A stretch of 64,000 nucleotides of DNA from Bactericera cockerelli (Eukaryota; Arthropoda; Insecta; Hemiptera; Triozidae). The stretch spans positions 48,081,783 through 48,145,782 of the forward strand of contig CM044958.1 in assembly GCA_024516035.1 (NCBI GenBank), read 5' to 3'. A program made the position numbers and the translations under genes. A model generated the notes under the pieces. It worked only from the letters and a program-made list of their open reading frames with translations, was not told where the DNA came from and made no database searches. Shown here in pieces: positions 583-64,000 of this stretch. Within the stretch, counting starts at the first letter, position 1, and every line of letters starts with the position of its first letter.

Positions 583-775
583 ACTGGGCGGGGGTCAGGT
601 AGAGGTGCAGATTCACAACTGGTTCTACAAAGCCGTAGCTCACTGGCTGGACATTGCACTATACAAGGCTCTGCAGCGAGTAGAGAAAGCCATTGAGCTA
701 GACACACTGACTCCTGTAGACGCCAGCGTCAAATATAGTTCCTCTGCTGTGGATACGCTAGCTATATTCTATCAG
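583..775 (+). CDS. BAIAP3: BAIAP3-like exon 1 in window
   Basis: Open frame with HNWFYKAVAHWLDIALYK and ending VDTLAIFYQ, then donor CAG|GTGAGC. I chose the acceptor at 581-582 (tatttttcacag); a second AG at 597-598 is possible. The upstream flank is a retroposed repeat tail, so the start is the least certain part. The 3' third of the exon is the seed of the tandem array that follows. Confidence 0.75.
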
Positions 776-9700: not shown

Positions 9701-12700
9701 TTTAGATGCGAAAATAGATTGTGTTTCACGAAAGCGCGAGGTTCCTACGTACAGCTAAAGTCGTTTTCTGGCCATACCGAATATCTTGAATTTCATGAAA
9801 ATATTTTTTTTTTTTTCTTCAGACCACTTTTCTGTCATGAGTATAGCAATGTGTGCGACATTTTTTGGATATCAACTAATCAGAGACCAGATGAAACACA
9901 ATTGTTTTAGTTGTGTACTAATTGGTCTTCTAGGTTTTCAAAAAAGTAACGGAATATTTATGACTGTTTCGTTGTACCCACCTACGTGAACTAAATTGTC
10001 AGCTCCGGGATTTAAACCTGGGATCTTCCGTAAGCAGGGATTTTAACACTGAGCTATACTTAACAAATTATTTTATTCAACCCACGTCAGTAGCTCAATC
10101 GATAAAGCGGCATACTCTTAGCTAGAAGTTGGTGGTTCAAATACCAAATCAAGCAAATATTTAGTAAGGCGTGTTTGAGTAATTGCGACAAGATGGTTGC
10201 ATTAACACTCGCAAATATCATAGTTTTTCAAAACTTTTGATAAACTTATCAATTTAACATTTTTACTTTTGAGTACCTACAGTCCTACATATGTAGATTA
10301 TATTTATATGTAGATATCGGGTGTTCGTCTTGATAAAATAAAATAAAAATCTCCATTTTTTTCTTCTGTTTTCAGTGATTTAAAAAAAAAAGTTAATTGT
10401 GCCCCGGGAACCGCCGCATTACTTCAGGGCACTTTACCTTTACATCCAAGCCATTCAGGAAATGGAAAAACTCGGTCAGCATTTTTTGCTCCGGCCGGGA
10501 TTCGAACCCACAACCTTCGGGTCATGAGCCACCGAAATCCGTTTTAAGTGAAGCTTTTAGGGCGAAATAAATAGACAACATCGATAACTTAAGTCATTGC
10601 CTAGCGTCGGTTTTCGTCATCTTACAGTGTACGCAATCTGTGCTGACTTCGCCCCACAGAGGTATTACAAAAACGTGTACTAATTTCGCCCTTAATTTTG
10701 TACTTCAGAGAAATTTTTAGGGCGGAATTAATAGACGTTTCTGTAATACCTCTGTGGCGCTAAGTCACAGATTGCGTACTGTGTAAAATAGGGAAAACCG
10801 ACACTTACCAACGACTTAAGTTATTGATGTTGTCTATTAATTCCGCCCTATTTTTTTTTAGTTTATTTAATAGTTTATTTATTTATTTTCTTTATAAAGA
10901 AACATTTATACAAAGGTACTTCTCCTAAGCTTTGAAGAGCTTCTAAGAGATCGAAAGAATTGTGTTCGTTTTTGTAAAAAAAAAAAAAAAAATATTTTTT
11001 TTCTCCTATTTCAATTTTTTTCATATTTCTGAACGCTTTCTCATTTGTCTCTTGTTCCCACAGTGGTGCTACGCGATGAACAACATCGACTACGTGCGAC
11101 ACTCCATCGAGCCCCTGGTGCAGGAGCTGGGAGTGGACCGCATTGTGCAGCGACTGGCGGAGTTCCGCAGCGACACCGCCAGCCAGCACTGTCAGCAGAC
11201 ACTGAAGCTAGTGGTGGATAACGCCAACGACACCGTGTCCAACAAGTTGCTTGATCTCATTCTGAACGCTATTAATAAGGTAGGTATAGTGTATTAAAAA
11301 AAAAAAAACAAAAAAAAAAAAACAAACAAAAAAAACAAAACAAAACAAACAAACAAAACAAATTCATGTGATGATGAAATCCTTTAGTTCTTTGTGTCTC
11401 ACCGCTAGAGAGAGCCACAGGATTGGCTAGAATTGACTGTTCCATATTACAACCCTGTTCCATATTACCACCTTCTCCCCTAATAAGCTATAGTGTGTTC
11501 AACAAGTTGCTTGATCTCATTCTGAACACTATTAATAAGGTACAGTGTGTTCAACAAGTTGCTTGATCTCATTCTGAACGCTATTATAATAAGGTATAGT
11601 GTGTTCAACAAGTTGCTTGATCTCATTCTGAACGCTATTAATAAGGTATAGTGTGTTCAACAAGTTGCTTGATCTCATTCTGAACGCTATTAATAAGGTA
11701 CAGTGTGTTCAACAAGTTGATTCAACAAAACAAATTCATGTGATGATGAAATCCTTTAGTTCTTTGTGTCTCACCGCTAGATAGAGCCACAGGATTGGCT
11801 AGAATCGACGGTTCCATATTACAACCCTATTCCATATTACCACCTTCTCCCCTAATAAGGTATAGTGTGTTCAACAAGTTGCTTGATCTCATTCTGAACG
11901 CTATTAATAAGGTACAGTGTGTCCAACAAGTTGCTTGGTCTCATTCTGAACGCTATTAATAAGGTACAGTGTGTCCAACAAGTTGCTTGATCTCATTCTG
12001 AACGCTATTAATAAGGTACAGTGTGTCCAACAAGTTGCTTGATCTCATTCTGAACGCTATCAATAAGGTACAGTGTGTTCAACAAGTTGCTTGATCTCAT
12101 TCTGAACGCTATTAATAAGGTACAGTGTGTTCAACAAGTTACACAGCCTCCGTGGCGTAATGGTTGTGACTACTGCCCGTAGTCCAGTGTTCCCGAGTTC
12201 AACTCCCGGCTGGGGCAGACTTTTCGAAGAAAATTCTGTTCCATCCAAACACGTGAGGCTGGCATTTCCGGCCCTACCCAGGCTGGGTGAGGTTAATGTG
12301 GGTAGCTGGTACGATTCCCAGCGAATGGAGGGTAAAAACCCCCGTCCTAATCCAGGACGTTAAATCAAATCGAATCGTTGGCGTTAGGAAGAGCATCCAG
12401 CCGTAAAAAAATGTGCTAAAAAAAATCAACCTCAACCATGAGGTTGAACAACGTCGACCCTGCTTGAGCAGGATAAGACAGAGTAAAAGAAGAAGTGTGT
12501 TCAACAAGTCGCTTGATCTCATTCTGAACGCTATTAATGAGGTATAGTATGTTCAACAAGTTGCTTGATCTCATTCTGAACGCTATTAATTAGGTATAGT
12601 GTGTTCAACAAGTTGATTCCACAAAACAAACTCTTGTGATGATGAAATCCTTTAGTTCTTTGTGTCTCACCGCTAGATAGAGCCACAGGATTGGCTAGAA

Positions 12701-15700
12701 TCGACTGTTCCATATTTACTTATTTATTATTACACGGGACCAGCCCAAGATACAAGTGACAATGTACAACAAATACGAGTAACAGTTTACAAATAAATAT
12801 TTTGAAATAAGGAGATATCAAAAATCAAAAATGATACAGTAAATATTACCACCTTCTGCCCTAATAAGGTATAGTGTGTTCAACAAGTTGCTTGATCTCA
12901 TTCTGAACGCTATTAATAAGGTATAGTGTGTCCAACAAGTTGCTTTATCTCATTCTGAACGCTATTAATAAGGTACAGTGTGTTCAACAAGTTGCTTGAT
13001 CTCATTCTGAACGCTATTAATAAGGTACAGTGTGTCCAACAAGTTGCTTGATCTCATTCTGAACGCTATTAATAAGGTATAGTGTGTTCAACAAGTTGCT
13101 TGATCTCATTCTGAACGCTATTAATAAGGTACAGTGTGTCCAACAAGTTGCTTGATCTCATTCTGAACGCTATTAATAAGGTATAGTGTGTTCAACATGT
13201 TGCGTGATCTCATTCTGAACTCTATTAGTTCACCTGGGAATCAACCATTTATCCTTTCACCTCTAGAAGTTGGCTGTGATACAAGAACTGCTCCTGGAAG
13301 GGATAGAGATTTGTTTTTTTTTTTTTTTTTTTTTTTTTTTTTCCACAAATTACGTAGTTCACCCATGCTTTGGGTAAATATTAAGGGAATAGAGTGACAT
13401 TAGCTCACCTGGGAATCAACAATTTAGCCTTTCACCTCTAGATGCTGCCTGTGATGCAAAAAATGCCCCTGAAAGAGATTTGTTTTTTTTTTCGTTTTCA
13501 ACAAATTAACGTAGTAAACTCATGCGTTGGGTAGGTAAATATTGAGGGAATAGACTGACTTTAGCAAAGGACGAATTGAAGACTTAAAATCTCTAACTGA
13601 CGAGGCTGAATCTTGGCATACCAATCTAAACTTGTAATAGACTTTACATAAAACAGCCAATACCCTTTTTTAGGATCCAGCTGTAATTATATCAATGTTT
13701 TCGTTTTTTTTATATACAATTTAACTTTGCTTTTGTCATTTCGAGTTATTTCAAATACTTTTTTACTGTCATCATTTCCTTATGTATAGCATGTACAATT
13801 TTGTTAAAATATAAAAATCCACACGATAAATAAAAGCTCAGCTGGGAATTACCTGTCTATCCCGAAAAGTACAAAAGTAGGTACTTAAGAGGAGGTGGAT
13901 GATATGAAAAAGTATGAAAATATGAATAAAAACAATTATTATTATTATTATCTGTCCCGGTAGCTCAGTGGTAAAGGCGGCACTCTGTGAATCCAGAGAT
14001 TCCAGAGGTCGCGGGTTCGAAACCCAGCCGGGACATGACAAGTTATCCTCCCATTTGGGATTTTTACCACATAATAATACGTCTTGGGCTTACTGCTGGA
14101 ATAATGGGACATAATAGTCCTAATCGGGCAGTATAAATAAGGCGATATTATTATTATTATTATTATCTTCTCACCTCCAGATGCTGCCTGTGATAGAGAA
14201 GCTACTCCTGGAAGGGATAGAGCTGGAGACGGACGCCCATAGTCTGGACAAGCTGATGAGCTACCTGGACGACTCCCTTCTCACCATGAGGAACCAGCTC
14301 AACCCAGACAACTTCCAGCGAGTTCTGAGCATCGTGTGGAACAGCGTGTCCTTCAAAGTCGAGAGCATAACGCTGTCTAGTTTAAATGTAAGTATTCGCT
14401 GTCTAGTTTAAATGTAAGTATTCGCTGTCTAGTTTAAATGTAAGTATTCGCTGTCTAGTTTAAATGTAAGTATTCGCTGTCTAGTTTAAATGTAAGTATT
14501 CGCTGTACTAGTTTAAATGTAAGTATTCGCTGTCTAGTTTAAATGTAAGTATTCGCTGTCTAGTTTAAATGTAAGTGTTCGCTGTCTAGTTTAAATGAAG
14601 TATTCGCTGTCTAGTTTAAATGTAAGTATTCGCTGTCTAGTTTAAATGTAAGTATTCGCTGTCTAGTTTAAATGTAAGTATTCGCAGTCTAGTTTTTAAA
14701 TCTTCCGTAATTTTCACATACATTTTTTTCTTACTTTCAGCTGAAAAAGCCGCACCAATTTTTCAAGCATCTACAATATTTTTTGTAACAAATTTTTAAA
14801 CATGTAGGTACTTTTTCTTACTTTCACCTGAAAAAGACGCCCAAATTTTTGAAGCACTTACTAAAAATCTTCGGGAATTTTCACATTCATTTCTGTCTCA
14901 CTTTCAGCTGAAAAAGCCGCCCTAACTTTTCAAGCACCTACAATATTTTTCGTTACAATTTATAAACATATACTTTTTCTTACTTTCAGCTGAAAAAGCC
15001 GCCCCAACTTTTCAAGCACCTACAATATTTTTCGTTACAATTTTTAAACATATAGGTACTTTGTCTCACTTTCAGCTGAAAAAGCCGCCCCAATTCTTCA
15101 AGCACTTACTAAAAATCTTCGGTAATTTTCACGTACATTTTTTGTCTCACTTTCAGCTGAAAAAGCGCCCCAACTTTTCAAGCACCTACAATATTTTTCG
15201 TTACAATTTTTAAACATACATTTTTGTCTCATTTTCAGCTGAAAAAACCGCCCCAATTTTTCAAGCACCTGCTGAAAATCTTCGACGTTCTCGTAGAGTT
15301 CTTCAACGAGTCGAACGAAGCGAGTCAGGAGTTCCGCCAGAGTCTAGAGCTCTACTCGCTCAGCACGGATGAGCTGACTCACCGCTACCATCTGCAGCAG
15401 CACCGTCGCATCGAGTCAGCAGAGGGGGGCGGGGCCAACTGTGGACAGCTGACGGTACGCGCGATGATCCTGAAGAACCAGGGACTGCTCAAGATTGAGA
15501 TCATGAACGCGCGGAACTTGAAGCCGGTGGATAGCGAAGGTGCGAGTCAAAATAACTGGGTTTATTTAATGCTCCATCTAAAAACTCATTTAAAACTAAA
15601 ATTGATGATTTTTGTTTTTTTAGAAGATTTTTTTATTAAAAAAAAAAAATGATATTATGATTAGAAGAAGAATATTATTTATTTTTTATACAAATAATAT

Positions 15701-20145: not shown

Positions 20146-20948
20146 GAAACCTGCCACTCGAGATGAGACGAAAGCACCAAGACTTCCAGAAAAACACTCT
20201 CACTCTCATAATCCCCTAATCTCCCTTTCAACCGTCACACAACGCACTCTGGATTGGTTAAATTTAAACGAAATAACCGTTTCAACCGTCACATAACGCA
20301 CTCTGATTGGTCAATTTGAACGAAATAACCGTTTCAACTGTCACACAACGCACTCAAGCCACTATCACATCACAGCTGATATACATGCGCTGTGATTGGT
20401 TGAAATTCCCACCAGAGGGCGAGTTAAGGGCAAACAGTCTGAATTATGAAAAAGTTGTTAGATATGGCTTTTAGAAGTCAAATAAAAATGGCTTAGGATG
20501 GGTCCTCTGTATACAAAAAAGAATAATGAAAGACTTTTCATAATTCAGATCTAGAGTTCCTCTATGTAGTCACTGCGACAGATTTTTTATTTTATTAACT
20601 ATGACACGGAACTTCTTTGTTCATTTTATCTAAACCAGTAACTTCTTTTCATAAAGATAGTATTAGGTATCTTTTGAACTTTTGAAAAAAAATTCCATAC
20701 CTCCATGGAAACCGATGTCATAATCCAAACAATCTTTTAATGCTTGAGACTAATACAATAATTTATTTCTGTACAGACTAAGCTACTTATTTCAATAAAT
20801 TAGTTATTTATTTAAATAAATCAAATTGTAATTTTACAAATATATATTTTTTTTACATATCTACGAAACGTTGTTTCATTGTTCTTTTATTGCTTTTACT
20901 AAAAAATCGGGATCACAAGTTCGAGTCAGAACTTAGAGGGCAGAATTA
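20146..20948 (+). other. Probable 3' UTR of the BAIAP3-like gene
   Basis: Begins after the stop. Contains three local copies of AACCGTCACACAACGCACTC with ATTGGTTAAATTTAAACGAA (20230-20350), part of which also occurs at 18046-18110. AATAAA-type signals lie near 20480 and 20793-20822. The exact cleavage site cannot be seen. Confidence 0.4.
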
Positions 20949-21080
20949 GGGCGAAATTAATAGACAAATTCGATATCACAAGTCATTGCTAAGCGTAGGT
21001 TTTCCCTATCTTACACAGTGCGCAATTCGTGACTTAGCGCCACAGAGGTACTAGAAAAACGTCTATTAATTCCGCCCTAA
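20949..21080. mobile_element. MITE, AGGGCG family
   Basis: About 130 bp with inverted ends AGGGCGAAATTAATAGAC / GTCTATTAATTCCGCCCT and core GTCATTGCTAAGCGTAGG ... GACTTAGCGCCACAGAGG. Copies elsewhere: 10559-10692, 10719-10850, 16381-16477 (part), 35348-35420 (part). Confidence 0.85.
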
Positions 21081-22312: not shown

Positions 22313-22412
22313 AAAAATACTCGTACTGAAAAAACTTCAATAGTCGTACTGAAACAATTTCAATACTCGTACTGAAACAACTTCAATACTTGTACTGGAA
22401 CAACTTCAATAC
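22313..22412 (-). repeat. 23-bp tandem repeat beginning at the candidate exon's 3' edge
   Basis: On the minus strand GTATTGAAGTTGTTTCAGTA plus CGA is repeated about four times directly after the open frame ends with ...GATGA. The copies share the -GA|GTATTG join, so the unit may span the junction. Confidence 0.7.
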
Positions 22413-23240: not shown

Positions 23241-23362
23241 CAACGAGGCAATGCTGCAAGCGTTTTGGGTTATTATCCCGAGGATGATGTTCTAAACAAT
23301 GTTTTTTTTTTTTTTTTTTTTTAATAAATAAGTGGACTTGTATTTAAAAAAATCTAGGCTCC

Positions 23363-25412: not shown

Positions 25413-25429
25413 TGATGTTTACACCAGAT

Positions 25430-26560: not shown

Positions 26561-26631
26561 GTATTGCCGTAGCACTGCCCTTGATCAAGTTTTGTTTTGT
26601 TATTTTAAATTTCTATGTATGTATATGTATA

Positions 26632-45300: not shown

Positions 45301-46397
45301 ATAGTACTTTTTATTTCTAAATAACAATTCTATTCACTTTATAATATTTATTATGAAACAATTCTATTCACTGTTATAATATTTATAATGAAACAATTCT
45401 ATTCACTGTTCTAATATTTATTATAAACAATTCTATCACCGTTCTAATATTATGCAAACACTCTCTTGCCGCAGGTTTAATATGCCACCCCACTGGCCGC
45501 GGCATGGAGAACCGCGACTCTGCGAGGCAAGGTGAGAGACCGGACTCGGATGACGTGGTGAGGCCGGGCATCCATCAGTGACTCGGCCCAGGGCCGGGGG
45601 CCTGGCATCGCGGCCTCGAGCACCTGGAGTGCCCGGGATAGTGGCCGCAGCCTGGATTGACTTTGATGTGAGTATTAAGACTTTATGTGAGTATTAAGAC
45701 TTTGATGTGAGTATTAAGACTTTGATGTGAGTATTAAGACTTTGATGTGAGTATTAAGACTTTGATGTGAGTTTAAGACTTTGATGTGAGTATTAAGACT
45801 TTGATGTGAGTATTAAGACTTTGATGTGAGTATAAGACTTTGATGTGAGTATTAAGACTTTGATGTGAGTATAAAGACTTTGATGTGAGTATTAAGACTT
45901 TGATGTGAGTATTAAGACTTTGATGTGAGTATTAAGACTTTGATGTGAGTATTAAGACTTTGATGTGAGTATTAAGACTTTGATTTTGTATTAAGACTTT
46001 GATGTGAGTATTAAGACTTTGATTTATATATTATATAATCTATTAATAAAAAGGACATTATGTACATATAAATAATAATTTTAACAGTGAAAAATCAAAA
46101 AAACAATATATACAATAAAAATGAAAAAGAATAGAAAATATTTGAAAACATAAATGTCCTAACTGTGTGAGTATTAACAAAAAATTGATGTGAGTATTAA
46201 GACTTTGATGTGAGTATTAAGACTTTGATGTGAGTATTAAGACTTTGATGTGAGTATTAAGACTTTGATGTGAGTATTAAGACTTTGATGTGAGTATTAA
46301 GACTTTGATGTGAGTATTAAGACTTTGATGTGAGTATTAAGACTTTGATGTGAGTATTATTATTATGAGTATTTATTATACAAGTACGATTTCCAGC

Positions 46398-49400: not shown

Positions 49401-52400
49401 AAGTTTTCCCTTGATTTTATCTAATCTTTAAGATTGCTCATAATAATAAAATGTTTAAACACTTATAACCAATTTCAGAATTGGTTATAAGTGTAAAAAA
49501 AATAAAAAATCAGAATTGTGCAATTTCTGTGATATTCTGACTTTGTAAATTCATTTCTAACTATCACTTTTTTTGGCATCAAATATCACTTATTAAATCA
49601 TTTAAAAATTGTCGAGACTTAATAAAAAATTAGTAATTTTCATTTTATTAATAATTTAAAAAATACTAATAACAATAATATTATATACTGTGGTTATATG
49701 GTATTTCTGCAGTGCATTTTTTCATTAATTTTTATGAAAGTTGCGCTATAAAGACAACTACTAGCTTTTATTTTTAAAAATAATTCGTTTCCTATATTTT
49801 TTTAGCTAAGTTACGCTATAAAGACAACTAGCTTTTCGTATAGTTTAGCTGTTATTTAAAATTATAATGCAAAAATAAAGTAATACTTTCTAGTCTAAAA
49901 TTTTTTGACCACCTAAAGTGGACCTAAAATGCCGTCCACAGAAGTGACCTATATCTATCGTTGTGTTGAGACCTACGACGTGGACTCACCTGATTCCATC
50001 AAAACCGAGGACACTTTCTATTAGGTAAAATAATGACAGTTGATTAAACCGAGGACACTTTCTATGAGGTAAAATAATGACAGGGGATTAAACTGAGGAC
50101 ACTTTCTATGAGGTAAAATAATGACAGGGGATTTTACATCTGAGAAATTTCTAATATTAGAAATCGGAAGTATTTTTTTTTGTTGAAGGCAGGAAAAAAT
50201 CTTTTAAAGACACCCAGGTCATCCTGACTTGGGGTGTGGGATTTCCACCCACTAAAAACCCACCTTCTCAAAGAGCTAACCGCACCTGGAACCGGTGTTA
50301 TAATTGGGTCTTCTCATTCAATTCTCCTTCTACCACCTCGTTAACAGTGTATTAAAATTTTATTGGGAGTATTTCAACTTATTGTAATGGCATACATCTG
50401 TCTTTGTATCACACTTGAAAAAAAAAACAAATAAATATAATAATATAACAATAGCGCCTTATTTATACTGCCCGATTAGGACTATTAGGTCCCATTTCCA
50501 GCAGTAAGCCCAAGACGTATTATTATATGGTAAAAATCCCAAATGGGAGGATAACTTGTCATGTCACGGCTGGGTTTCGAACCTGCGACCTCTGGAATCT
50601 TTGGATTCACAGAGTGTCGTCTTTACCACTGAGCTACCGGAACAGACGAGCTTGAGTGAACTTCCAATTAAGCCAGCTTCGCGTCGATGGCACGTTTTTG
50701 TTCTCGATTAAACGGCGCTTAACACGTTCGTTACGAACGGCCATATTGGATGTTTTGTGTTTTTCTTTGGACCGAAAACACACATGTGGCTTTATCAAAA
50801 TTTTAACGATGGACTGGACATCCATATATGGCCTTTTTTGTTAGGATAATGGTTATTTGTATGAACCCTGTATTGTAGAACAGATATATAGGATCGATAA
50901 TTTTGGTACCCAGGATGCATCAGCGACTTTACCGCCTGGTCCCTACGTAAAACTTGAAAAAATTGGCTTGGTAACGAATGTGTTAAACGGCGCTTAACAA
51001 GGCTAATGTAAATTTTTGTTTTCCAGGAGCGCATGGTGATGGACCCTCTAGTCTACAACGAGAGGGTTCGACCCTCCCTGGAGGAGAGACTCGAGAGTAT
51101 CATCAGTGGCGCAGCTCTCATGGCAGACTCCAACTGTACCAGGGACGACAGACGAGAGAGAATAGTGGCGGAGTGTAACGCCGTGAGACAGGCACTGCAG
51201 GATCTGCTGTCAGAATACATGGCCAATGTACGTTTATATAAAAAATCGATAAGTTTTTATGTGTAAAAAATTTTTTGTTTAAAAAAAAGTTTTGTTTTGT
51301 TTAAAAAAAAAATATTTATGAATATTAAAAACCTAAAAAAGTAGTGAACTAGAGAGAATAGTGGCGGAGTGTAACGCCGTGAGACAGGCACTGCAGGATC
51401 TGCTGTCAGAATACATGGCCAATGTGAGTTTATAAAAAAAAAATCGATAAGTTTTTATGTGTAAAAAATTTTTTGTTTAAAAAAAAGTTTTGTTTTTGTT
51501 TAAAAAAAAAAAATATATATGAATATTAAAAACCTAAAAAAGTAGTGAACTAGAGAGAATAGTGGCGGAGTGTAACGCAGTGAGACAGGCATTGCAGGAC
51601 CTGCTGTCAGAATATATGGCCAATGTGAGTTTATAAAAAAATTATGAGTTTTAGCGTTAGAAAAATAAAATATGAAAAAAACTAAAAATGTAGTGTACTA
51701 GAGAGAATAGTGGCGGAGTGTAATGCAGTGAGACAGGCATTGCAGGACCTGCTGTCAGAATACATGGCCAATGTGAGTTTATAAAAAAAATGATGAGTTT
51801 TTGTTAAAAAAAAAAAATAAAAAAAAAATATGAATATTAAAAACCTAAAAAAGTAGTGTACTAGAGAGAATAGTGGCGGAGTGTAATGCAATGAGACAGG
51901 CATTGCAGGATCTGCTGTCAGAATACATGGCCAATGTAATTTTATAAAAAAAAATGATAAGTTTATGTTTTTAAAAAAAAATATGAATATTAAAAACCTA
52001 AAAAAGTAGTGTACTAGAGAGAATAGTGGCGGAGTGTAACGCCGTGAGACAGGCATTGCAGGACCTGCTGTCAGAATACATGGCCAATGTACGTTTATAA
52101 AAAAATATCGATAAGTTTTTATGTGTAAAAAATTAAACATGAATATTAAAAAAACTAAAAAAGTAGTGTACTAGAGGAATTAGTGTCGGAGTATAATGCA
52201 ATGAGACAGGCACTGAAGGACCTGCTGTCAGAATACATGGCCAATGTAAGTTTATAAAAAAAATTGATAAGTTTTTTGTTTTAAAAAAAATATGAATATT
52301 AAAAATCTAAAAAAGTAGTGTACTAGAGAGAATAGTGGCGGAGTGTAACGCCGTGAGACAGGCACTGCAGGATCTACTGTCAGAATATATGGCCAATGTA

Positions 52401-52783
52401 AGTTTATAAAAAAATGATAAGTTTTTGTCAAAAAAAAAAATATGAATATTAAAAACCTAAAAAGTAGTGTACTAGAGAGAATAGTGGTGGAGTGTAATGC
52501 AATGAGACAGGCATTGCAGGACCTGCTGTCAGAATACATGGCCAATGTAAGTTTATAAAAAGAAATAATAGTTTTTGCATTAAAAAAATAAAATATGAAT
52601 ATTAAAAACCTAAAAAAGTAGTGTACTAGAGAGAATAGTGGCGGAGTGTTATGCAATGAGACAGGCATTGCAGGACCTCCTGTCAGAATACATGGCTAAT
52701 GTACGTTTATATAAAAAATCGATATTATTATTATTATTTAACTCTTTATTGGTCAACTACAACATTCAACAAAATAGGACATG

Positions 52784-55800: not shown

Positions 55801-58800
55801 CTATACTGAGCCACCCTGTATACTCAGGTCATCTACTATAGCCACCCTGTATACTCAGGTCATAAACTCCAAGGTGAGTCATCTACTATAGCCACCCTGT
55901 ATACTCAGGTCATAAACTCCAAGGTGAATCATCTACTATACTGAGCCACCCTGTATACTCAGGTCATAAACTCCAAGGTGAGTCATCTACTATAGCCACC
56001 CTGTATACTCAGGTCATAAACTCCAAGGTGAGTCATCTACTATAGCCACCCTGTATACTCAGGTCCCGAATACTCTACTATTACAACCATGTATGTATGG
56101 TCAAATGGTTTGTAAAAAACTAATCGGTTGAAATCTTTTAATTTTCAGGTGTTGTCGATTTTTTTTTTTTTTTTTTTTTTTTTTTTGAACTTTTTTTTGA
56201 AACATATTAACAACTTAAGTTGTAGTTTTATTTATAATTTTTACAAGGAAATTATACATACATGGATACAAATTTACAAATATGGATGTTTTTTTTCTTT
56301 TTCTTTTCTCCTAGACTTTGTCTTTTCTAGTAGTGTATGATATGGTATCATCACCGGTAAATAATAATATTGAGATTCCATCGAGATAAACTTTACCTCT
56401 GAGCATGGACCAGTAGCGGTCTGTTCGACATCTATCAGAAGCTTATTATTATTGGTATTTAATCACATAGTAATACGTCTTGGGCTTACGGCTGGTAAAA
56501 TGGGACTTTGATAGTCCTAATCGGGCAGTATAAATAAGGCGATATTGTATGTGTATGTATGATTTTCTTTGTGGTGAAGCACAAGGCCTCTTCACAATTT
56601 TTGTGGGTAGCGCAGCATTACTAAGAGCCTCCTTTACATTTCGAATTATTCTATTACATTAATTTCTTTTTGCTCTGGTAATGCCGCCACTGGTCGTTAC
56701 TCATACAAGTAACTACTCATTTTTCCTCACGAGGTATGAGTGGACCCCGAACATCCAAGTACAGAGCAGAAAAAATCCTCCCCCGCTGGGAATCGAACCC
56801 AGGTCACAATGTGTGCAATGCCTAGCGCGCTAACTCGCTCTGCCACAGTGACTACTTATAAGGCGATATTGTTATTATTATTTTTTTTTTCAAGTTCTCA
56901 CTTCACCTCAAAAACCTTGTTTTTTGTGATAATTAATTTCTGAACGTTTCCGTGTGACCCACAGGTGGCCCAGGAGAACATGGATGTGTTCAAGGACGCG
57001 TGGGACACCCAGGTGCGAGTCCTGACCGAGGCTGTGGACGACATCACCACCATAGACGATTTCCTGGCCGTCTCAGGTAATTTTTTGTTGTGTTTGTTTT
57101 TTTTTATATTTTTATAAGATGAGTGTTTCACGGCCTTTTTTATTTTGTTTTTTTTTTTTATAGAAAACCCGATATCTTTTAAAATATTTCAGTTATTGCT
57201 ATTTTATAATTAATTAGGATTATAATTATAGTGTTAAAATTATGTTTAAAAAAAAAATCGTAGCCATGGAGACCCTTAAGATCTGTGTTGTAGCTCGCCC
57301 ATCCCGTAGTTTGCCTCCCCTCTGATGGTGGGCGAGAAGTCAATTTGACGGTTGAAATTGAATTTTGGGATTTTTTTTTTGGTTTTTGGGCAGTAGCGGT
57401 AGGGGACTAAACAGGGAGTAGACCAGCATTGGCTTGGTTCTGGGGGTCCTTGTCAATTATTAGCCTCCTTGTAAAGACAGTGGTAGAAGTGCTGAGTCAT
57501 TCCTCCACTGTCTGGCTACCATCGTTCACGATGAAGCCACCCTATGATGAGTGTGTTCCAGCCTTAACTAATAGGCAATCCTTTCTTCCCACAGAGAACC
57601 ACATCCTGGAAGATGTGAACTAAGAGGCAATCCTTTCTTCCCACAGAGAACCACATTCTAGAAGATGTAAACTAATAGGCAATCCTTTCTTCCCACAGAG
57701 AACCACATCCTGGAAGACGTGAACAAGTGTGTCCTGGCCCTACAGGAGGGCGACGCAGACATTCTGGACCGCACAGCGGGGGCCATTCGCGGCCGCAGTG
57801 CCAGAGTGGCCAATGTGGTGGCGGCCGAAATGGACAACTACGAGCCTGGAATCTACACGGAGCGCGTTCTGGAAGCTATCAAGGTGCTGAGAGAACAGGG
57901 TGAGTGTGATTAGATAACAAGGAGTGATTAGATAACAAGGGGTGGTTAGATAATGTGTTATAGACATGGACAGCTAGGAGCCTGGAATATACACGGAGCG
58001 CGTTCTCGAAGCTATCAAGGTGCTGAGAGAACAGGGTGAGTGTGATTAGATAACAAGGGGTGATTAGATAACAAGGGGTGGTTAGATAATGTGTTATAGA
58101 CATGGACAACTACGAGCCTGGAATCTACAAGGAGCGCGTTCTGGAAGCTATCAAGGTGCTAAGAGAACAGGGTGAGTGTGATTAGATAACAAGGGGTGAT
58201 TAGATAACGTGTTATAGAGATGGGCAGCTACGAGCCTGGAATTTACACGGAGCGCGTTCTGGAAGCTATCAAGGTGCTGAGAGAACAGGGTGAGTGTGAT
58301 TAGATAACAAGGGGTGATTAGATAACATATCATAGAAATGGACAACTACGAGCCTGGAATTTACACGGAGCGCGTTCTCGAAGCTATCAAGGTGCTGAGA
58401 GAACAGGGTGAGTGTGATTAGATAACAAGGGGTGATTAGATAACAAGGGGTGGTTAGATAATGTGTTATAGACATGGACAGCTAGGAGCCTGGAATCTAC
58501 ACGGAGCGCGTTCTGGAAGCTATCAAGGTGCTGAGAGAACAAGGTGAGTGTGATTAGATAACAAGGGGTGATTAGATAACGTGTTATAGAGATGGGCAGC
58601 TACGAGCCTGGAATTTACACGGAGCGCGTTCTGGAAGCTATCAAGGTGCTGAGAGAACAGGGTGAGTGTGATTAGATAACAAGGGGTGATTAGATAACAT
58701 ATCATAGAAATGGACAACTACGAGCCTGGAATTTACACGGAGCGCGTTCTCGAAGCTATCAAGGTGCTGAGAGAACAGGGTGAGTGTGATTAGATAACAA

Positions 58801-61800
58801 GGAGTGATTAGATAACGTGTTATAGAGATGGGCAGCTAGGAGCCTGGAATCTACACGGAGCGCGTTCTGGAAGCTATCAAGGTGCTGAGAGAACAGGGTG
58901 AGTGTGATTAGATAACAAGGGGTGATTAGATATGAAGATAAGATTAGATAACAAGGCGTGATTAGATAACAAGGAGTGATTAGATAACATGTCATAGAAA
59001 TGGACAGCTTGGAGCCTGGAATCTACACGAAGCGCGTTATTAACGTGCTGAAAAAACAAGGTGAGTGTGATTAGATAACAAGGGGTGATTGGATAACATT
59101 ATGTGATTAGAAAACGAGAAATGAACAACTATGATCCAGGGTGTTCTGACAGTTATCAAGGTTTTGAGAGAGCAAGACGTGTGTGGTTCGATAACAGAAC
59201 GTGATTAGATAATCAATATGTGATTAGATAACAATACGTGATTAGAATGATAACAAGGCAAGAGAATGGAGAAATCTGAGCCGTCTTATGATCTGCGAAC
59301 GGTTCCCTTACCAATTATCAATTTTCCCATATCTTCTTCTCTTTACAGTGATGCCAAATGTTGCCACCCAAAAACGTAGTGTTATTAAACCAATAATTCA
59401 ATCTCTTCTCTTTACAGTGATGCCAAACTTCGCCACCAGGGTAGAGGTGGCGGTGGACGCTCTGTCCACCAATCCACCCAAGGATGTGGACGAGAACGAG
59501 TTCATTGACGCCTCCCGTCTGGTGTATGACGGAGTCAGGGAGATTCGGCGAGCCGTTCTGATGAACCGGGTAAGTGAACGAGTGAGCTATTGAGTCGGTC
59601 TGATGAACCGGGTAAGTGAACGAGTGAGCTATTGAGTCGGTCTGATGAACCGGGTAAGTGAACGAGTGAGCTATTGAGTCGGTCTGATGAACCGGGTAAG
59701 TGAACGAGTGAGCTATTGAGTCGGTCTGATGAACCGGGTAAGTGAACGAGTGAGCTATTGAGTCGGTCTGATGAACCGGGTAAGTGAACGAGTGAGCTAT
59801 TGAGTCGGTCTGATGAACCGGGTAAGTGAACGAGTGAGCTATTGAGTCGGTCTGATGAACCGGGTAAGTGAACGAGTGAGCTATTGAGTCGGTCTGATGA
59901 ACCGGGTATGTGAACTAGTGAGTCATCCAGTCAATGAACTAGTGAGCTATTGAGTCGGTCTGATGAACCGGGTAAGTGAACGAGTGAGTGGTCTAGTTAA
60001 TAAACTAGTGAGCTATTGAGCCGTTCTCATGAACCGGGTAAGTGAACTAGTGAGCTATTGAGTCGGTCTGATGAACCGGGTATGTGAACTAGTGAGTCAT
60101 CCAGTCAATGAACTAGTGAGCTATTGAGTCGGTCTGATGAACCGGGTAAGTGAACGAGTGAGTGGTCTAGTTAATAAACTAGTGAACTATTGAGTCGGTC
60201 TGATGAACCGGGTAAGTGAACGAGTGAGCTATTGAGTTGGTCTGATGAACCGGGTAAGTGAACGAGTGAGCTATTGAGTCGGTCTGATGAACCGGGTAAG
60301 TGAACTAGTGAGTCATCCAGTTAATGAACTAGTGGGCTATTGAGCTGGTCTGATGAACCGGGTAAGTGAACGAGTGAGCTATTGAGTCGGTCTGATGAAC
60401 CGGGTAAGTGAACGAGTGAGTCGTCCAGTTAATGAACTAGTGAGCTATTGAGTCGGTCTGGTGAACCGGGTAAGTGAACGAGTGAGTCGTCCAGTTAATG
60501 AACTAGTGAGCTATTGAGTTGGTCTGGTGAACCGGGTAAGTCAACGAGTGAGTGGTCTAGTTAATGAACTAGTGAGCTATTGAGTTGGTCTGATGAACCG
60601 GTTGAGTGAACGAGTGAGTGGTCTAGTTAATGAACTAGTGAACTATTGAGTTGGTCTGGTGAACCGGGTAAGTCAACGAGTGAGTCGTTAGTGAGCTATT
60701 GAGTTGGTCTGATGAACCGGGTGAGTGAACGAGTGAGTGGTCTAGTTAATGAACTAGTGAGCTATTGAGTCGGTCTGATGAACCGGGTAAGTCAACGAGT
60801 GAGTCGTTAGTGAGCTATTGAGTTGGTCTGATGAACCGGGTGAGTGAACGAGTGAGTCGTCCAGTTAATGAACTAGTGAGCTATTGAGTTGGTCTGGTGA
60901 ACCGGGTAAGTCAACGAGTGAGTGGTCTAGTTAATGAACTAGTGAACTATTGAGTTGGTCTGGTGAACCGGGTAAGTCAACGAGTGAGTCGTTAGTGAGC
61001 TATTGAGTTGGTCTGATGAACCGGGTGAGTGAACGAGTGAGTCGTCCAGTTAATGAACTAGTGAGCTATTGAGTTGGTCTGGTGAACCGGGTAAGTCAAC
61101 GAGTGAGTCGTTAGTGAGCTATTGAGTTGGTCTGATGAACCGGGTGAGTGAACGAGTGAGTCGTCCAGTTAATGAACTAGTGAGCTATTGAGTTGGTTTG
61201 ATGAACCGGGTAAGTGAACGAGTGAGTCGTCCAGTTAATGAACTGGTGAGCTATTGAGTTGGTTTGATGAACCGGGTAAGTGAACGAGTGAGTGATCCAG
61301 TTGATGAACTAGGGAGCTATTGAGTCGGTCTGATGAATTGGGTGAGTGGAAGGAGTATTGAGTCCGTAACAGATATTATAGTGATTGATAAGTCACTGAG
61401 TGAGTTGATTGATGCATCACGTCTCGTATAATTGGAGATTTGACGAGCTCTTCTGATGAATCGGGTGAGTGAGTGAGCTATTGAGTCGTGAGCTAGGGTG
61501 AGTGAGTGAGCTATTGAGTCGTGAACTAGTGCGCGTGATTATTGAACATTTCCGTCTTGCATCATAAGTATGATGGAGTCAGAGATATTCGATGAGATGT
61601 TGCTATAAGTCGGGTGAATGAATGAGCTATACCTATTTTTAACTTTATTTTCTTTTAAGATGAGTGTACCACAGCCTTTTTTTATTTCGTGGCCAATAAG
61701 CAGAAGCTACTGTAAACGCTTTTGGTCTGTGTTGTAGCTTGCCCATCCCGTAGTATGCCTCCCCTCTGCTGTGCGTAAAGTGACACAATACTTCCCATTT

Positions 61801-64000
61801 ATAAGGTGCTGGGCTCAACACGTATCGACTACAAACAACCATAACTAAATTTAGAATTTTTTTTTTTTCGGGTTCGGGGATGGTACACGGGACCTTCCGC
61901 ATGGAAAGTGAGTGCTGAACCACTGAGCTGATCGTGCGCTGAACTGAACTGAACTGATTCGTTTCATTTCAGACGGATGAAGAGCTGGATCCCGAGGATA
62001 TTGAGCTGGACGAGCCGTACACAACTTCTGAGGCCACCGCCACCATCAGGACCAAAGAGCCAGGAGTAGATGAGTACCCGGACATCAGCGGCATTACTAC
62101 TGCCAGGGTGAGTACTGTGGTGTTACTACTGCTAGGGTGAGTACTGTGGTGTTACTACTGCCAGGGTGAGTACTGTGGTGTTACTACTGCCAGGGTGAGT
62201 ACTGTGGTGTTTTTTTTTTATTTTTTTTTTTTTTTAAAGCTTTATTAATTAGGAGGACAAACAGGCAACAGTATAAAATTAAGAAAAGAAAGAAAGAAAA
62301 AAAAAAAAAAAAAAAACAAACAAATGACAAAATAAATAAGTAAAAAAGAAAAGAAAATAACAATAATGTCCTACCTAAAGGGCGGGGTTATTGCAAGGGC
62401 AATCTCTTCCACCCAACCCTTACTACTGCTAGGGTAAGTACTGTGGTGATACTACTGCTAGGGTGAGTACTGTGGTGTTACTACTGCTAGGGTAGGTACT
62501 GTGGTGTTACTACTGCTAGGGTAAGTACTGTGGTGTTCCTACTGCTAGGGTAAGTACTAAGGTGTTAGAACTGCTAGGGTAAGTACTGTGGCATTACTAC
62601 TGCTAAAAAAAAAACTTTGATTGTTTCATGATTTCTGGTTGGTCTTCACAAGAAGAGATGCAGAAGATAAACAAACAAAAAATGATTGATGTGCACTGCT
62701 GGTCAAGTGGTTAACGCGCTAGTCTGGTAATCCAGGTAGCCTAGGAATCCGTTGGTTCGAATCCCACCGAGTGCAATTTATCCTCATTAATTTGAGTTTG
62801 TGACAACATAATAATAAGACTCTGAGGGTTAGGTGGTAGAAAATGCTTTGAGCATGAACCTCGCCTGGTGGTCACTTTCCACTAAAGAGTATTTTATTAT
62901 ATCAACACAAATATGACAACTTTTTTTCAAAATAGATCCAATTGATGAGAATGCCGAAGGCATTATCACCACCCTTGATCAGGCTTTGTTTATATTTATT
63001 TCTAACTTGTTACTATGTTCATTGTATATAAAAGATGTAAATAAAGCTTGATCCAAATGTTTATATAAAAAAAAAAAAAAAAATTGAGGACGTTGTTATA
63101 ATTGGGTCTTCTCATTGAATTCTCCTTCTACCACCTCGTTAACAGTGTATTTTAATTTTATTGGGTAGTTACCTTCCACCAAAGATTATTATCTGTCCCG
63201 GTAGCTCAGTGGTAAAGGCGGCACTCTGTGAATCCAGAGACTCCAGAGGTCGTGGGTTCGAAACCCAGCCGGGACATGACATGTTATCCTCCCATTTGGG
63301 ATTTTTACCACACATAATAATACGTCTTGGGCTTACTGCTGGAATAATGGGACTTTCATTGTCCTATTCGGGCAGTATAATAAGGCGATATTATTATTAT
63401 TATCATTAACAACCAGTGGGAGCATGACAAAACTGAAAACTTTTTTTTCAAGATGTGATAGAAGCTCTTAATAATGAAGTTTTGCCGACCAATATTTTAA
63501 TGGAATAATGGGACTTTAATTGTCCTATTCGGGCAGTATAATAAGGCGATATTATTATTATTATTATTATTTTGGAAAGGATCAATTTTAATGTGCCAAG
63601 ATTAAGTTCTAGACACACTTTGCCCTTTCGGTCCTCGCCTTCTAATTTAATACCCCTCAACAGGTTGATGAATTTGTGTAATATTTATCCTAATATGGAC
63701 TACTCACAAAGAATGGGGTGCTTTGTAGCAGATCTAAAAGATATTCTTTATGGATTATGATTTTCTTTATTTAAAAATGCTGTTATTTTTACTATTTTTA
63801 TTTTACTTTAGTCAATTATTATAAGTGTATTAATGATGTTATAGGTGGGAAACCACTGTTTTGTAATGCACTCTAAATAAAATAAATAAATTGAAATTAT
63901 TATTACTATGTTCACAGGAAGCGATGCGGAAGATGACGGAGGAGGACAAGCAGAAGATCGCCCAGCAGGTGGAGTTCTTCCGCAGTGAGAAGCTCAAGTT
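42010..64000 (+). CDS. alpha-Cat: Alpha-catenin gene, thirteen exons, runs off the right edge
   Basis: Exons match the vinculin-family adaptor alpha-catenin from its N-terminus to about residue 670. The beta-catenin-binding and dimerisation part is MSVEKTLEPLVLQVTTLVNT and GNMVRAARNLLSAVTRLLIL. The middle domain includes ERLESIISGAALMAD, TRDLRRQLRKAVVDHVSD and LVLIEAARSGNEKEV. Further on come VDDITTIDDFLAVSENHILE, DNYEPGIYTERVLEAIKV and EFIDASRLVYDGVREIRRAV. The actin-binding domain lies beyond 64000. Family knowledge: it links cadherin/beta-catenin to F-actin at adherens junctions. Exons 1, 2 and 4 carry frame breaks; exons 3 and 5-13 are clean. Most introns from exon 4 on contain junction-derived tandem arrays. 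Confidence 0.96.
42588..42753 (+). CDS. alpha-Cat: Alpha-catenin exon 2, one-base deletion
   Basis: GDA then a premature TGA; with one A restored at GCATGAGC the frame runs MSLAAREFADDPCSSLKRGN and MVRAARNLLSAVTRLLILAD to LLLKSLRV, donor GTG|GTGAGT. The rest of the exon is intact and highly conserved. Confidence 0.88.
43378..44055 (+). mobile_element. Dispersed repeat with GTCTGTCTGTC core
   Basis: From GAGAAATTTCTAATATTAGA through TTTGCTCCGATTTCAATTTT, (GTCT)n, and CGACCGATTTTGATGAAATT to AGGAAGTATTGTGTCC. End fragments recur near 8820, 10965, 29870 and 50150. It ends just upstream of alpha-catenin exon 3. Confidence 0.7.
44087..44296 (+). CDS. alpha-Cat: Alpha-catenin exon 3
   Basis: VEDDLEKVKNASSQGELLDN, IKAFGRNATELMNQAAKRQM, ELKDPQLRDDLAAARAILKK and HSTMLLTASK. 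Acceptor tgcaatcag, donor AAG|GTAAAC, phase 0 at both ends. No frame problem. Confidence 0.95.
44543..44890 (+). mobile_element. CACTGG-type SINE carrying an insertion, with partial second tail
   Basis: Head from GTGCACTGGTAGTCAAGTGG. A ~61-bp CpG-rich insertion sits at 44639-44699. The tail (CATTAACCTCGCCTGGTG) is repeated once at 44839-44890. Confidence 0.8.
44639..44699. mobile_element. Possible tiny hAT-type element
   Basis: CAATCAAACCGGTTTCGTAC ... CGTAACGGGTCGATGA, flanked by an 8-bp TTGAGTTT repeat that is present once in uninserted SINE copies. Core ACGTTACGACGCGTCGTAAC is palindromic. Confidence 0.55.
45475..45667 (+). pseudogene. alpha-Cat: Alpha-catenin exon 4, present but heavily frame-broken
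   Basis: Lies where the exon for VYVRHPE...NRD...SDVAQ...GELAAALDDFD is needed, between ttgccgcag and GTGAGT. Fragments are visible in different frames: HP near 45490, ENRD near 45512, SDDVV near 45547, and VAAA-IDFD at the end, with the exit phase fitting exon 5 (ERMVMDP). Several indels separate them. Much GC-richer than its flanks. Either a low-quality consensus patch or a true lesion. Confidence 0.7.
45668..46370 (+). repeat. Tandem array of exon 4 tail plus 5' splice site (20-bp unit)
   Basis: Over 25 copies of GACTTTGATGTGAGTATTAA, which is the end of exon 4 (DFD codons GACTTTGAT) plus donor GTGAGT. The 20-bp period is almost perfect. A retroposed tail (about 46020-46165, minus orientation) interrupts it, and a T-run of about 33 follows at 46397. 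Confidence 0.96.
46853..47180 (-). mobile_element. GCCTCCGTGGCG-type SINE, minus orientation
   Basis: Starts with the CTTCTTCTTTTTC tail complement and runs to GGGAATCGAACTCAGGATCT. A plus-strand 3' fragment of the same family precedes it at 46615-46790. Confidence 0.78.
47405..47725 (+). mobile_element. tRNA-derived SINE, same family as 40-285
   Basis: Head AATAGCTCAGTGGTTAAGCA ... GTCCCGGGTTCGAACCC, tail with CAAGCGTCTACAGTAGCTCC. A small internal duplication (GGTATACTACGG) is present. Confidence 0.8.
48149..48356 (+). mobile_element. CACTGG-type SINE
   Basis: Near full length: CTGGTAGTCGAGTGGTTAAC ... GGTTCGAATCCCACTC ... GGTTACCTTCCACTTAAGAG, ending in TATTATTATT. Confidence 0.85.
48793..48998 (-). 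mobile_element. CACTGG-type SINE, minus orientation
   Basis: Reverse of the family, from CTCTTCAGTGGAAGGTTACC to CCACTCGACAACCAGTG. Confidence 0.85.
49459..49494. repeat. Near-perfect 36-bp hairpin
   Basis: ACACTTATAACCAATT, TCAG loop, AATTGGTTATAAGTGT in an AT-rich intron of alpha-catenin. Most simply a MITE relic. Confidence 0.8.
49942..50024 (+). CDS. Candidate unassigned exon within alpha-catenin intron 4
   Basis: Between a good acceptor (gccgtccacag) and TATTAG|GTAAAA the frame VTYIYRCVETYDVDSPDSIK TEDTFY is open, ending in TAG at the junction; later copies read GAG there. The peptide is not known alpha-catenin sequence and I do not recognise it. Its 3' part is repeated downstream in the same exon-tail-plus-donor manner as the real exons. 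Confidence 0.3.
49985..50139 (+). repeat. Three tandem copies of the candidate exon's tail plus donor
   Basis: AACCGAGGACACTTTCTATG with AGGTAAAATAATGACAG occurs three times with a period near 50 bp. Each copy holds an AG|GTAAAA donor-like join. Confidence 0.85.
50450..50645 (-). mobile_element. GTCCCGGTAGCTCAG-type SINE, minus orientation
   Basis: Runs from GCGCCTTATTTATACTGCCC to CCACTGAGCTACCGGAACAG. Confidence 0.83.
51027..51227 (+). CDS. alpha-Cat: Alpha-catenin exon 5
   Basis: ERMVMDPLVYNERVRPSLEE, RLESIISGAALMADSNCTRD, DRRERIVAECNAVRQALQDL, LSEYMAN. Acceptor ttgttttccag, donor AAT|GTACGT, phase 0. Near-identical to insect and vertebrate alpha-catenins. Confidence 0.96.
51228..52985 (+). 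repeat. Tandem array of exon 5 tail plus 5' splice site (150-200-bp unit)
   Basis: About ten copies of GAGAGAATAGTGGCGGAGTG through CAGAATACATGGCCAAT and a donor (GTGAGT, GTAAGT or GTACGT), each followed by T-rich spacer and AATATTAAAAACCTAAAAAA. Copies begin near 51354, 51556, 51704, 51868, 52017, 52173, 52335, 52480, 52633 and 52940 (last partial). Exonic parts differ by C/T changes. A retroposed tail with a 41-base A-run sits at about 52730-52870. Confidence 0.95.
53432..54085 (-). mobile_element. Dispersed ~650-bp repeat, copy 2
   Basis: Inverse copy of 24766-25412, sharing ATCTGGTGTAAACATCACAC and CTTACCGTTCTTGAGATATCC, with a (CA)n-rich tract at 53934-53955. Lies in alpha-catenin intron 5. 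Confidence 0.8.
54615..54730 (+). CDS. alpha-Cat: Alpha-catenin exon 6
   Basis: MSIKEPSEGLERAIDHMCRK, TRDLRRQLRKAVVDHVSD plus AG. Acceptor aatatttcag, donor ACAG|GTGAGC, exit phase 2. Confidence 0.95.
54848..55080 (-). mobile_element. GCCTCCGTGGCG-type SINE, minus orientation
   Basis: ATTCGCAGGGAATCGTACCA through CATTACGCCACGAAGGCT, in alpha-catenin intron 6. Confidence 0.8.
55358..55475 (+). CDS. alpha-Cat: Alpha-catenin exon 7
   Basis: (S)FMETDIPILVLIEAARSGNE, KEVEKAAENFADHANKLVE. Acceptor ttctgtttcag, donor GAG|GTAAGC. Confidence 0.95.
55651..55788 (+). CDS. alpha-Cat: Alpha-catenin exon 8
   Basis: VANLACSMSSNEDGVKMVRY, AASSIATLYTQVINAARILA, ARPRSK. Acceptor cctctataccag, donor AAG|GTGAGT. 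Confidence 0.95.
55789..56070 (+). repeat. Tandem array of exon 8 tail plus 5' splice site (about 50-bp unit, internally deleted)
   Basis: About six copies of GCCACCCTGTATACTCAGGT, CATAAAC, then TCCAAG|GTGAGT. Relative to the exon, each copy lacks the ~31 bp between CATAAAC and TCCAAG (the codons around AARILAARPR). The first and last copies are shorter. Confidence 0.93.
56575..56860 (-). mobile_element. CACCGTGGCAGAGTG-type SINE, minus orientation
   Basis: CACAAGGCCTCTTCACAATT to GCTCTGCCACAGTGACTAC, in alpha-catenin intron 8. Confidence 0.82.
56965..57076 (+). CDS. alpha-Cat: Alpha-catenin exon 9
   Basis: VAQENMDVFKDAWDTQVRVL, TEAVDDITTIDDFLAVS plus G. Acceptor gtgacccacag, donor TCAG|GTAATT. 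Confidence 0.95.
57115..57345 (-). mobile_element. SINE fragment, same family as 40-285
   Basis: GATGAGTGTTTCACGGCC and TGTTGTAGCTCGCCCATCCC in minus orientation, head missing. Confidence 0.6.
57555..57698 (+). repeat. Two extra copies of the exon 10 3' splice site and head (about 50-60 bp)
   Basis: AATCCTTTCTTCCCACAGAG then AACCACAT.CT.GAAGATGT appears near 57578 and 57630 before the true acceptor at 57697-57698. The decoys end in AACTAA, giving a stop if used. Confidence 0.93.
57699..57899 (+). CDS. alpha-Cat: Alpha-catenin exon 10
   Basis: (E)NHILEDVNKCVLALQEGDAD, ILDRTAGAIRGRSARVANVV, AAEMDNYEPGIYTERVLEAI, KVLREQ plus G. I used the third of three tandem acceptors. Donor CAGG|GTGAGT. Confidence 0.95.
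57900..59100 (+). repeat. Tandem array of exon 10 tail plus 5' splice site (115-175-bp unit)
   Basis: Nine copies of GAGCCTGGAATCTACACGGA through GTGCTGAGAGAACAG and G|GTGAGTGTGATTAGATAA, with CCTGGAAT near 57981, 58117, 58235, 58353, 58489, 58607, 58725, 58841 and 59017. Between them lies a minor repeat GATTAGATAACAAGGGGT. Copies at 58235/58607 and 58353/58725 are near-identical pairs, implying later duplication of a two-unit block. Confidence 0.95.
59330..59417 (+). repeat. Extra copy of the exon 11 3' splice site and head
   Basis: CTTCTCTTTACAGTGATGCC then AAATGTTGCCACC at about 59338-59372 mirrors the true acceptor and head (CTTCTCTTTACAGTGATGCC, AAACTTCGCCACC) about 67 bp later. Confidence 0.92.
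59418..59569 (+). CDS. alpha-Cat: Alpha-catenin exon 11
   Basis: (V)MPNFATRVEVAVDALSTNPP, KDVDENEFIDASRLVYDGVR, EIRRAVLMNR. Donor CGG|GTAAGT. Acceptor is the second of two copies. Confidence 0.95.
59570..61345 (+). repeat. Tandem array of exon 11 tail plus 5' splice site (42-bp unit, longer variants)
   Basis: Roughly 35-40 copies of GGTCTGATGAACCGG|GTAAGTG..., where GATGAACCGG is the exon end (MNR codons), followed by AACGAGTGAGCTATTGAGTC. The first eight are perfect 42-mers. Later ones add GTCGTCCAGTTAATGAACTA to make longer units, and higher-order blocks recur (for example 60680-61140). Decayed copies continue to about 61620. Confidence 0.96.
61660..61945 (-). mobile_element. SINE, same family as 40-285, minus orientation
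   Basis: Tail AAGCAGAAGCTACTGTAAAC and head GGTTCGGGGATGGTACACGG in reverse; lies between the exon 11 array and alpha-catenin exon 12. Confidence 0.75.
61973..62107 (+). CDS. alpha-Cat: Alpha-catenin exon 12
   Basis: TDEELDPEDIELDEPYTTSE, ATATIRTKEPGVDEYPDISG, ITTAR. Acidic linker ahead of the actin-binding domain. Acceptor gtttcatttcag, donor AGG|GTGAGT. Confidence 0.94.
62108..62610 (+). repeat. Tandem array of exon 12 tail plus 5' splice site (29-bp unit)
   Basis: About ten copies of TTACTACTGCTAGG|GTGAGTACTGTGGTG (GTAAGT in later ones). Split by a retroposed tail in minus orientation at about 62212-62420, flanked by an A/T run. Confidence 0.95.
62692..62900 (+). mobile_element. CACTGG-type SINE
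   Basis: GTGCACTGCTGGTCAAGTGG ... TTGGTTCGAATCCCACC ... CTTTCCACTAAAGAGTAT. Confidence 0.85.
63195..63402 (+). mobile_element. GTCCCGGTAGCTCAG-type SINE
   Basis: Full-length plus-strand copy, GTCCCGGTAGCTCAGTGGTA to GGCGATATTATTATTATTA. Confidence 0.87.
63572..63905 (+). mobile_element. 3' end of a non-LTR retrotransposon
   Basis: Frame FNVPRLSSRHTLPFRSSPSN then LIPLNRLMNLCNIYPNMDYS and a stop at 63760 resembles the C-terminus of LINE ORF2 proteins; a short 3' UTR with AATAAA follows. Ends 13 bp before the exon 13 acceptor region. Confidence 0.6.
63918..64000 (+). CDS. alpha-Cat: Alpha-catenin exon 13 (cut by the window edge)
   Basis: EAMRKMTEEDKQKIAQQVEF, FRSEKLK, open at the right edge. 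Acceptor tatgttcacag. Confidence 0.95.

Follow-up and report, generated by a model that had tools for sequence, protein, structure and literature searches.

Tandem arrays built from exon-intron junctions in several genes of the psyllid Bactericera cockerelli

Why do so many tandem arrays in one genomic stretch lie on exon-intron borders? The window, which is the whole 64 kb of DNA analysed here, lies inside a psyllid genome of 565,017,811 bases (1032 contigs). Its left-hand gene is unc-13 4B/BAIAP3-like, and its right-hand gene is alpha-catenin, which extends past the window end. The top alpha-catenin match came from a psyllid, Cacopsylla melanoneura; the other psyllid among the matches listed was Diaphorina citri. 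A Pfam scan over the left gene in two of the three plus-strand frames gave no match above the cut-off. Arrays were detected with TRF, and exon edges were taken from spliced alignments to C. melanoneura proteins. Sixteen alpha-catenin introns were used, of which 12 rest on gapless alignment, one on an alignment with a three-residue gap, and three on placement by hand. The alpha-catenin exon 45475-45667 (encoding VYVRHPELAAAKENRDF...) contains many small indels, with further single-base shifts near 42063 and 42595; these are probably consensus errors of the assembly.

Twelve junctions in the window have repeat units composed of an exon edge, the splice site, and an intron edge (Table 1). Nine are donors (775, 11279, 14387, 45667, 51227, 55788, 57899, 59569, and 62107) and three are acceptors (15239, 57699, and 59418). 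A TRF array straddles nine of the 12. At donors 11279 and 55788, the array begins within the intron, yet the exon tail makes up its units, and acceptor 59418 has a single extra copy only. A 13th machine match, at acceptor 14181, was spurious on inspection. The first-pass annotation had counted at least 14 junction arrays (10 donor, four acceptor); the 12 above were confirmed and the remainder were not, and no gene was assignable to its two "candidate exons". The same feature is seen outside the window: at donor 64099 (with one copy) and at acceptor 68588, both immediately to its right, and in the flanking DNA on the left at one donor of unc-13.

Table 1. Arrays at splice junctions of the window and an exon whose tail seeds an array (window positions).
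Feature	Position	Strand	Basis
unc-13 4B/BAIAP3-like exon, tail seeds array	583..775	+	spliced alignment to P0241: acceptor 583, donor 775
Donor-side array, 152 bp x 5.9; unit ~95 exon + 57 intron bases	681..1562	+	TRF; junction comparison
Donor-side array set, 52-bp units = tail of exon ending 11279 + GT...; begins within intron	11481..13227 (11481-12140, 12494-12615, 12862-13227)	+	TRF; exon tail vs unit
Donor-side array, 26 bp x 12.5, donor 14387 (17 exon + 9 intron bases)	14371..14695	+	TRF; junction comparison
Acceptor-side array, ~82-bp units, acceptor 15239	14716..15284	+	TRF; junction comparison
Alpha-catenin donor-side array, 20 bp x 35, donor 45667 (GACTTTGAT/GTGAGTATTAA), hand-placed donor	45659..46359	+	TRF
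Donor-side array, 153-201-bp units, donor 51227; exon tail ~73 bases, copies readable in frame	51155..52724	+	tblastn copies; TRF
Donor-side array, 50 bp x 4.7; unit = internally deleted exon tail (donor 55788) + GTGA; begins within intron	55828..56065	+	TRF; exon tail vs unit
Acceptor-side array, 52 bp x 3.1, acceptor 57699 (26 intron + 26 exon bases)	57566..57724	+	TRF; junction comparison
Donor-side array, donor 57899, 118-bp units in higher-order repeats (236, 372 bp); ~70 exon bases	57827..58989	+	TRF; tblastn copies; genome search
Acceptor-side duplication, one extra copy, spacing 69 bp, acceptor 59418	59335..59437	+	junction comparison
Donor-side array, donor 59569, basic unit 42 bp, higher-order 66/108/304 bp	59550..61529	+	TRF; junction comparison
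Donor-side arrays, 29 bp x 4.1 and x 6.4, donor 62107	62094..62605	+	TRF; junction comparison

These arrays are local tandem duplications across a splice junction, in which part of the exon is copied together with the splice site and part of the intron. The copies are located towards the intron, and the functional exon keeps its position. The exon tail ending at 51227 recurs in ten further places and that ending at 57899 in nine (one partial copy in each case); 15 of these 19 copies retain 85-100% amino-acid identity, and some contain stop codons. Arrays occupy 31% of the examined intron bases in alpha-catenin and 18% in unc-13, and the unc-13 intron 2730-11060 has no TRF array with a period of at least 15. 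It had also been noted that HP1 and a nested gene lack arrays. In a coarse check of this statement, no array with a period of at least 15 was found in 30740-36200, and two short overlapping arrays were seen at 30646-30733. The idea that unit lengths are all 2 mod 3 was not borne out and looks like chance, other junction units being 22, 30, 36, 39, and 42 bp long. Separately, a 44-bp x 3 array at 50002-50133 in an alpha-catenin intron has GAG/GTAAAA in its unit; it may be the mark of an unannotated exon.

Since alpha-catenin and unc-13 had been chosen for their arrays in the first-pass annotation, we examined further genes. The intron set (n = 59) comprised 16 introns of alpha-catenin, 16 and 15 of two vinculin copies (A and B), and 12 of unc-13; the vinculin copies were taken as alpha-catenin-family matches before their sequence was inspected. 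Counting TRF arrays with a period of at least 15 and a score of at least 60 gave 56 arrays in the 59 introns, and 16 of them (12 donor, four acceptor) straddled a junction. Under a null model in which each array is seeded as one unit at a uniform position, 2.6 (smallest period) or 4.2 (largest period) straddles were expected, and 16 was reached in none of 200,000 simulations of either version. The proposal that arrays touch junctions beyond chance was thus upheld. In the vinculin copies, five of 27 arrays straddled a junction versus 1.08 expected; taken one by one under the stricter test (largest period), the copies gave weak results (P = 0.08 and 0.03). A probe test that counted additional occurrences of the central bases gave no separation of donors (15/59) or acceptors (6/59) from intron positions (10, 17, and 11 of 44) because arrays spread broadly over introns. 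Therefore, the seed-based test is the informative one.

The same pattern was found at myosin exons. We picked 39 exons from 77 myosin-head matches before their sequence was seen, mostly well-scoring matches without stops and inside the domain. With 77 exon ends in view, 12 of 25 arrays straddled a junction (nine donor, three acceptor), against 3.9 expected (P = 6e-5). L055/L056 and L057/L058 are near-duplicate gene copies, so the independent cases number approximately 10. The myosin counts omit the ambiguous loci L034 and L049 and the acceptor-side arrays of L050 and L062, which stop before the acceptor; a 40th locus, L048, which was picked for its repeat, was left out of the straddle counts, and the acceptor of L065 was placed by hand. 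With near-duplicate copies included, straddles numbered 22 at donors versus seven at acceptors.

TCP-1 exons (20 of 68 matches, picked unseen) showed no excess, one of seven arrays straddling a junction versus 0.6 expected; at two of these loci (L085 and L101), arrays adjoin junctions. Since the sampled TCP-1 exons (L082-L101) have few junction arrays, susceptibility may differ between genes. Three SNF transporter loci were fetched because the match list already showed repeated exon pieces, and they count as evidence of existence only: at two of them, exon heads form acceptor-side arrays, and at the third, GTGAG follows the repeated exon sequence. At L103 and L104, exon pieces repeat at spacings of 145 and ~101 bp, respectively; the L104 units may have both AG and GT inside and could be short exon copies. 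Overall, the results obtained support a duplication bias towards splice junctions that extends beyond the window and is not uniform over genes, and the low array cover of background DNA (figures given below) speaks for it as well. Junctions are favoured in the alpha-catenin/vinculin, unc-13, and myosin genes, and are not favoured in TCP-1.

The two vinculin copies (L014-L018 and L019-L023) lie ~1.8 Mb apart in opposite orientation, and where their pieces align, the similarity is mostly 83-98%. Several myosin genes likewise seem to have a second copy nearby. These pairs may be haplotigs or recent duplicates (alleles or paralogues). In near-duplicate copies, one junction can have different units. 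One vinculin donor has 70-bp units in copy A (flanks CTGCGGCAG and CTGCTGCAG) and 39-bp units in copy B (flanks GGGAAGGG and GGGAAGGG), and each copy carries the direct repeats of the other unduplicated. At a common vinculin donor, a 35-bp unit is present in 2.5 copies in copy A and 8.3 in copy B. Elsewhere, the acceptor of L051 is single (unit flanks CGTCTATTC...CGTCTGTTC), against about three 38-bp units in L039; L029 is single versus two 17-bp units in L049. The presence of single junctions beside arrays and of two different units at one donor indicates that the arrays arise repeatedly and turn over fast. As a separate observation, a 41-bp x 6.5 array directly upstream of an acceptor (L050:90-354) ends short of the exon and is single-copy in the near-duplicate L031.

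Short direct repeats at the unduplicated site were clear at the vinculin donor (8-9 bases) and weak at L051 and L029. The vinculin donor has a 9-base word shared across the junction, whereas array-free donors (n = 44) share at most eight bases; the shared word at L051 and L029 is an ordinary five bases.

The arrays consist of head-to-tail units in several copies, with copy numbers that differ between gene copies, and are minisatellites in this sense. They resemble minisatellites or VNTRs in introns in unit length (17-200 bp), copy number (2-35), the presence of higher-order units, and copy-number differences between gene copies. However, an ordinary minisatellite would not be expected to begin at a splice junction, whereas the unit here is an exon edge with its splice site and intron edge. 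Tandem exon duplication, as in mutually exclusive exons, likewise places exon sequence in tandem near its parent exon, and there a whole exon with both splice sites is duplicated. The measured units are not of this kind, with L104 as a possible exception; since the measured units contain one splice site and a partial exon, with stop codons in some copies, they are not spare exons. FLT3-type internal tandem duplications are said to use microhomology and can cross an exon-intron border, as here; they differ in being somatic, single events in one gene rather than a germline feature of many genes.

A further comparison is with intron gain by tandem duplication, in which duplication of an exonic AGGT segment creates a new intron, as described in Drosophila (PMC2891723). 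The likeness lies in the tandem duplication of DNA holding a splice or proto-splice site. However, a new intron is formed there, whereas here junctions that already exist are copied into one end of an intron, in many cases repeatedly, and across several genes. The suggested link to AGGT intron-gain models was not established: the copies make introns longer at a single end, and in the 59 introns no array runs from one intron end to the other.

We consider it about as probable as all other readings together that the arrays are junction-seeded minisatellites, formed by microhomology-mediated tandem duplication at junction-proximal breaks followed by expansion. As for the reason why junctions are preferred, we infer that DNA at the exon-intron border may break or stall unusually often, probably through transcription or splicing. 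Our first candidate for the source of the breakage is pausing of the polymerase at the 5' splice site; the first-pass annotation had suggested R-loops or slippage at the donor, which would be further candidates. Short direct repeats on either side would then mispair in repair so that the intervening DNA is duplicated, and the duplicated pair could grow by slippage or unequal exchange. Purifying selection would purge duplications that alter the exon, and its tolerance may be lower for acceptor copies than for donor ones. Transcription pausing at 5' splice sites would yield both a donor preference and the centring of the junction described below.

In deduplicated units of at least 60 bp (n = 10), the junction falls between 0.36 and 0.63 of the unit length (P ~1e-4 versus uniform and 9e-4 versus uniform 0.1-0.9), a post hoc result. 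Centring depends on the choice of unit: for units of at least 40 bp (n = 14), P was 0.02 or 0.22 under two nulls, and for all 27 deduplicated arrays with the automatic unit, KS P was 0.07. When the unit spacing was allowed as a multiple, the mean position was 0.41 (KS P = 0.05; 25 arrays, L048 included). We consider the automatic units of L055, L066, and L034 to be wrong or ambiguous; a hand calculation from better-matching TRF rows placed the junction at 0.60 in L055 and 0.74 in L066. The exon and intron shares of units are correlated (Spearman 0.60, automatic units), and measured units have an exon share of 4-115 bases at one junction. A stronger proposal is that splice junctions are germline hotspots and that the duplication process reads its position from the junction: breaks would occur at the RNA-defined border during transcription, repair would copy approximately equal lengths of exon and intron, and splicing would thereby mark the DNA heritably and drive intron growth. 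We regard this proposal as tentative.

About half as probable as the main reading, in our estimation, is an exon-biased duplication combined with a filter. Exonic DNA, being richer and more complex, would duplicate often; purely exonic events would be purged, and border-crossing events would survive as an intact exon remains. Such a process predicts exon-bearing arrays at both types of junction, and array cover is indeed high around myosin exons (25 arrays, 16.4% cover at 39 loci, 33.6 kb) and low elsewhere, with five arrays and 2.9% cover in 13 stretches at round-number positions (19.5 kb) and four arrays and 2.1% cover between the window genes (19.1 kb; 20200-30500 and 33000-41800, with the HP1 neighbourhood omitted). 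However, the junction would then fall anywhere in the unit, and it is mainly the near-middle junction of the long units, although a post hoc finding, that makes us disfavour this explanation. Moreover, exon GC did not differ between straddled and other junctions. The 12 straddled donors did not differ from the other 47 donors (which include 11279 and 55788) in exon GC, intron GC, site strength, or intron length, and the four straddled acceptors were like the other 55 in exon GC and intron GC. Therefore, the GC step, splice-site strength, and intron length were ruled out as predictors for donors, and no measured local feature predicts which junction is struck, a result that weighs against the main reading.

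Selection could also keep the arrays. Under such functional retention, the copied splice sites would bind U1 or splicing factors and either define the exon or shield long introns from premature polyadenylation. In 26 arrays, copied splice dinucleotides were altered in 1/202 cases versus 32/619 for the same dinucleotide elsewhere in the units (P = 0.0015), and in 20 donor arrays, bases -1, +1, and +2 were nearly invariant and +3 was variable. However, a permutation over 20 donor arrays gave only P = 0.04, and the first pass had revealed no difference for GT (11/187 altered versus 32/503 for the same dinucleotide elsewhere in units); AG was altered in 3/24 versus 3/92. Seven of the 11 altered GTs came from unc-13 donor 11279, at which we consider a gap to be misplaced, and all three altered AGs from L065 with its misplaced acceptor. 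For the 26-array count, donor 11279 and L034 were dropped, L065 was corrected, alignment settings were changed, and gapped cells were excluded. Changes in copies fell 22, 11, and 26 times on the three codon positions (third-position share P = 0.10). Retention does not predict acceptor copies, and arrays are gained and lost between gene copies that are nearly identical. We consider it improbable. The opposite suggestion in the first-pass annotation, that selection tolerates decoy splice sites only at junctions, found no support, as the copied dinucleotides are not eroded; their intactness does not point to selection against decoys and hints at retention weakly at best.

An ascertainment or assembly artefact is very improbable. 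The window was picked for its arrays, long-read assembly errors might have made or inflated copies, small indel errors do occur in the window assembly (the exon near 45475-45667), and some gene copies may be haplotigs. However, the pattern recurs at myosin exons picked unseen, copies differ from their array consensus by 2-3% per base and stand in higher-order repeats, and the 35-bp unit occurs in both vinculin copies with a different copy number.

A dispersed element or satellite inserting at splice sites can be dismissed almost entirely: introners and TE-derived introns are known in other eukaryotes (PMC9860276), and introners are likewise splice-site-bearing repeats in many genes, but they share one sequence among many genes, whereas units here vary by junction, contain the exon of their own gene, and, where tested, are private to their own junction. 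A 231-base stretch of the 57899 array had ten matches in the 565-Mb genome, all within its own array (the search skips very common words), and 11 window units matched only their own place in 364 kb of sequence; on these grounds, a dispersed element was rejected. A 38-bp unit (TGCTGGTCTACTCCCTGTTTATAGTCCCCCA...) was seen by eye at 54134-54209, where it lies on the opposite strand, at L046:158-232, and at 41686-41888 of the joined vinculin copy A. With three unrelated places, it appears by eye to be a dispersed minisatellite, unlike the junction arrays.

A literature search of open-licence papers found no account of minisatellites seeded at splice junctions, which counts as weak evidence only; intron gain by tandem duplication and introners are described (PMC2891723, PMC9860276). 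If the bias is true genome-wide, it would mean a mutational process aimed at splice sites, which DNA polymerases cannot recognise, and would tie transcription or splicing to local DNA breakage. It would explain part of intron growth and provide decoy splice sites in large numbers. Under the same condition, this psyllid would make it possible to follow, in a living system, how splice signals are duplicated; several intron-gain models take such duplications as their raw material.
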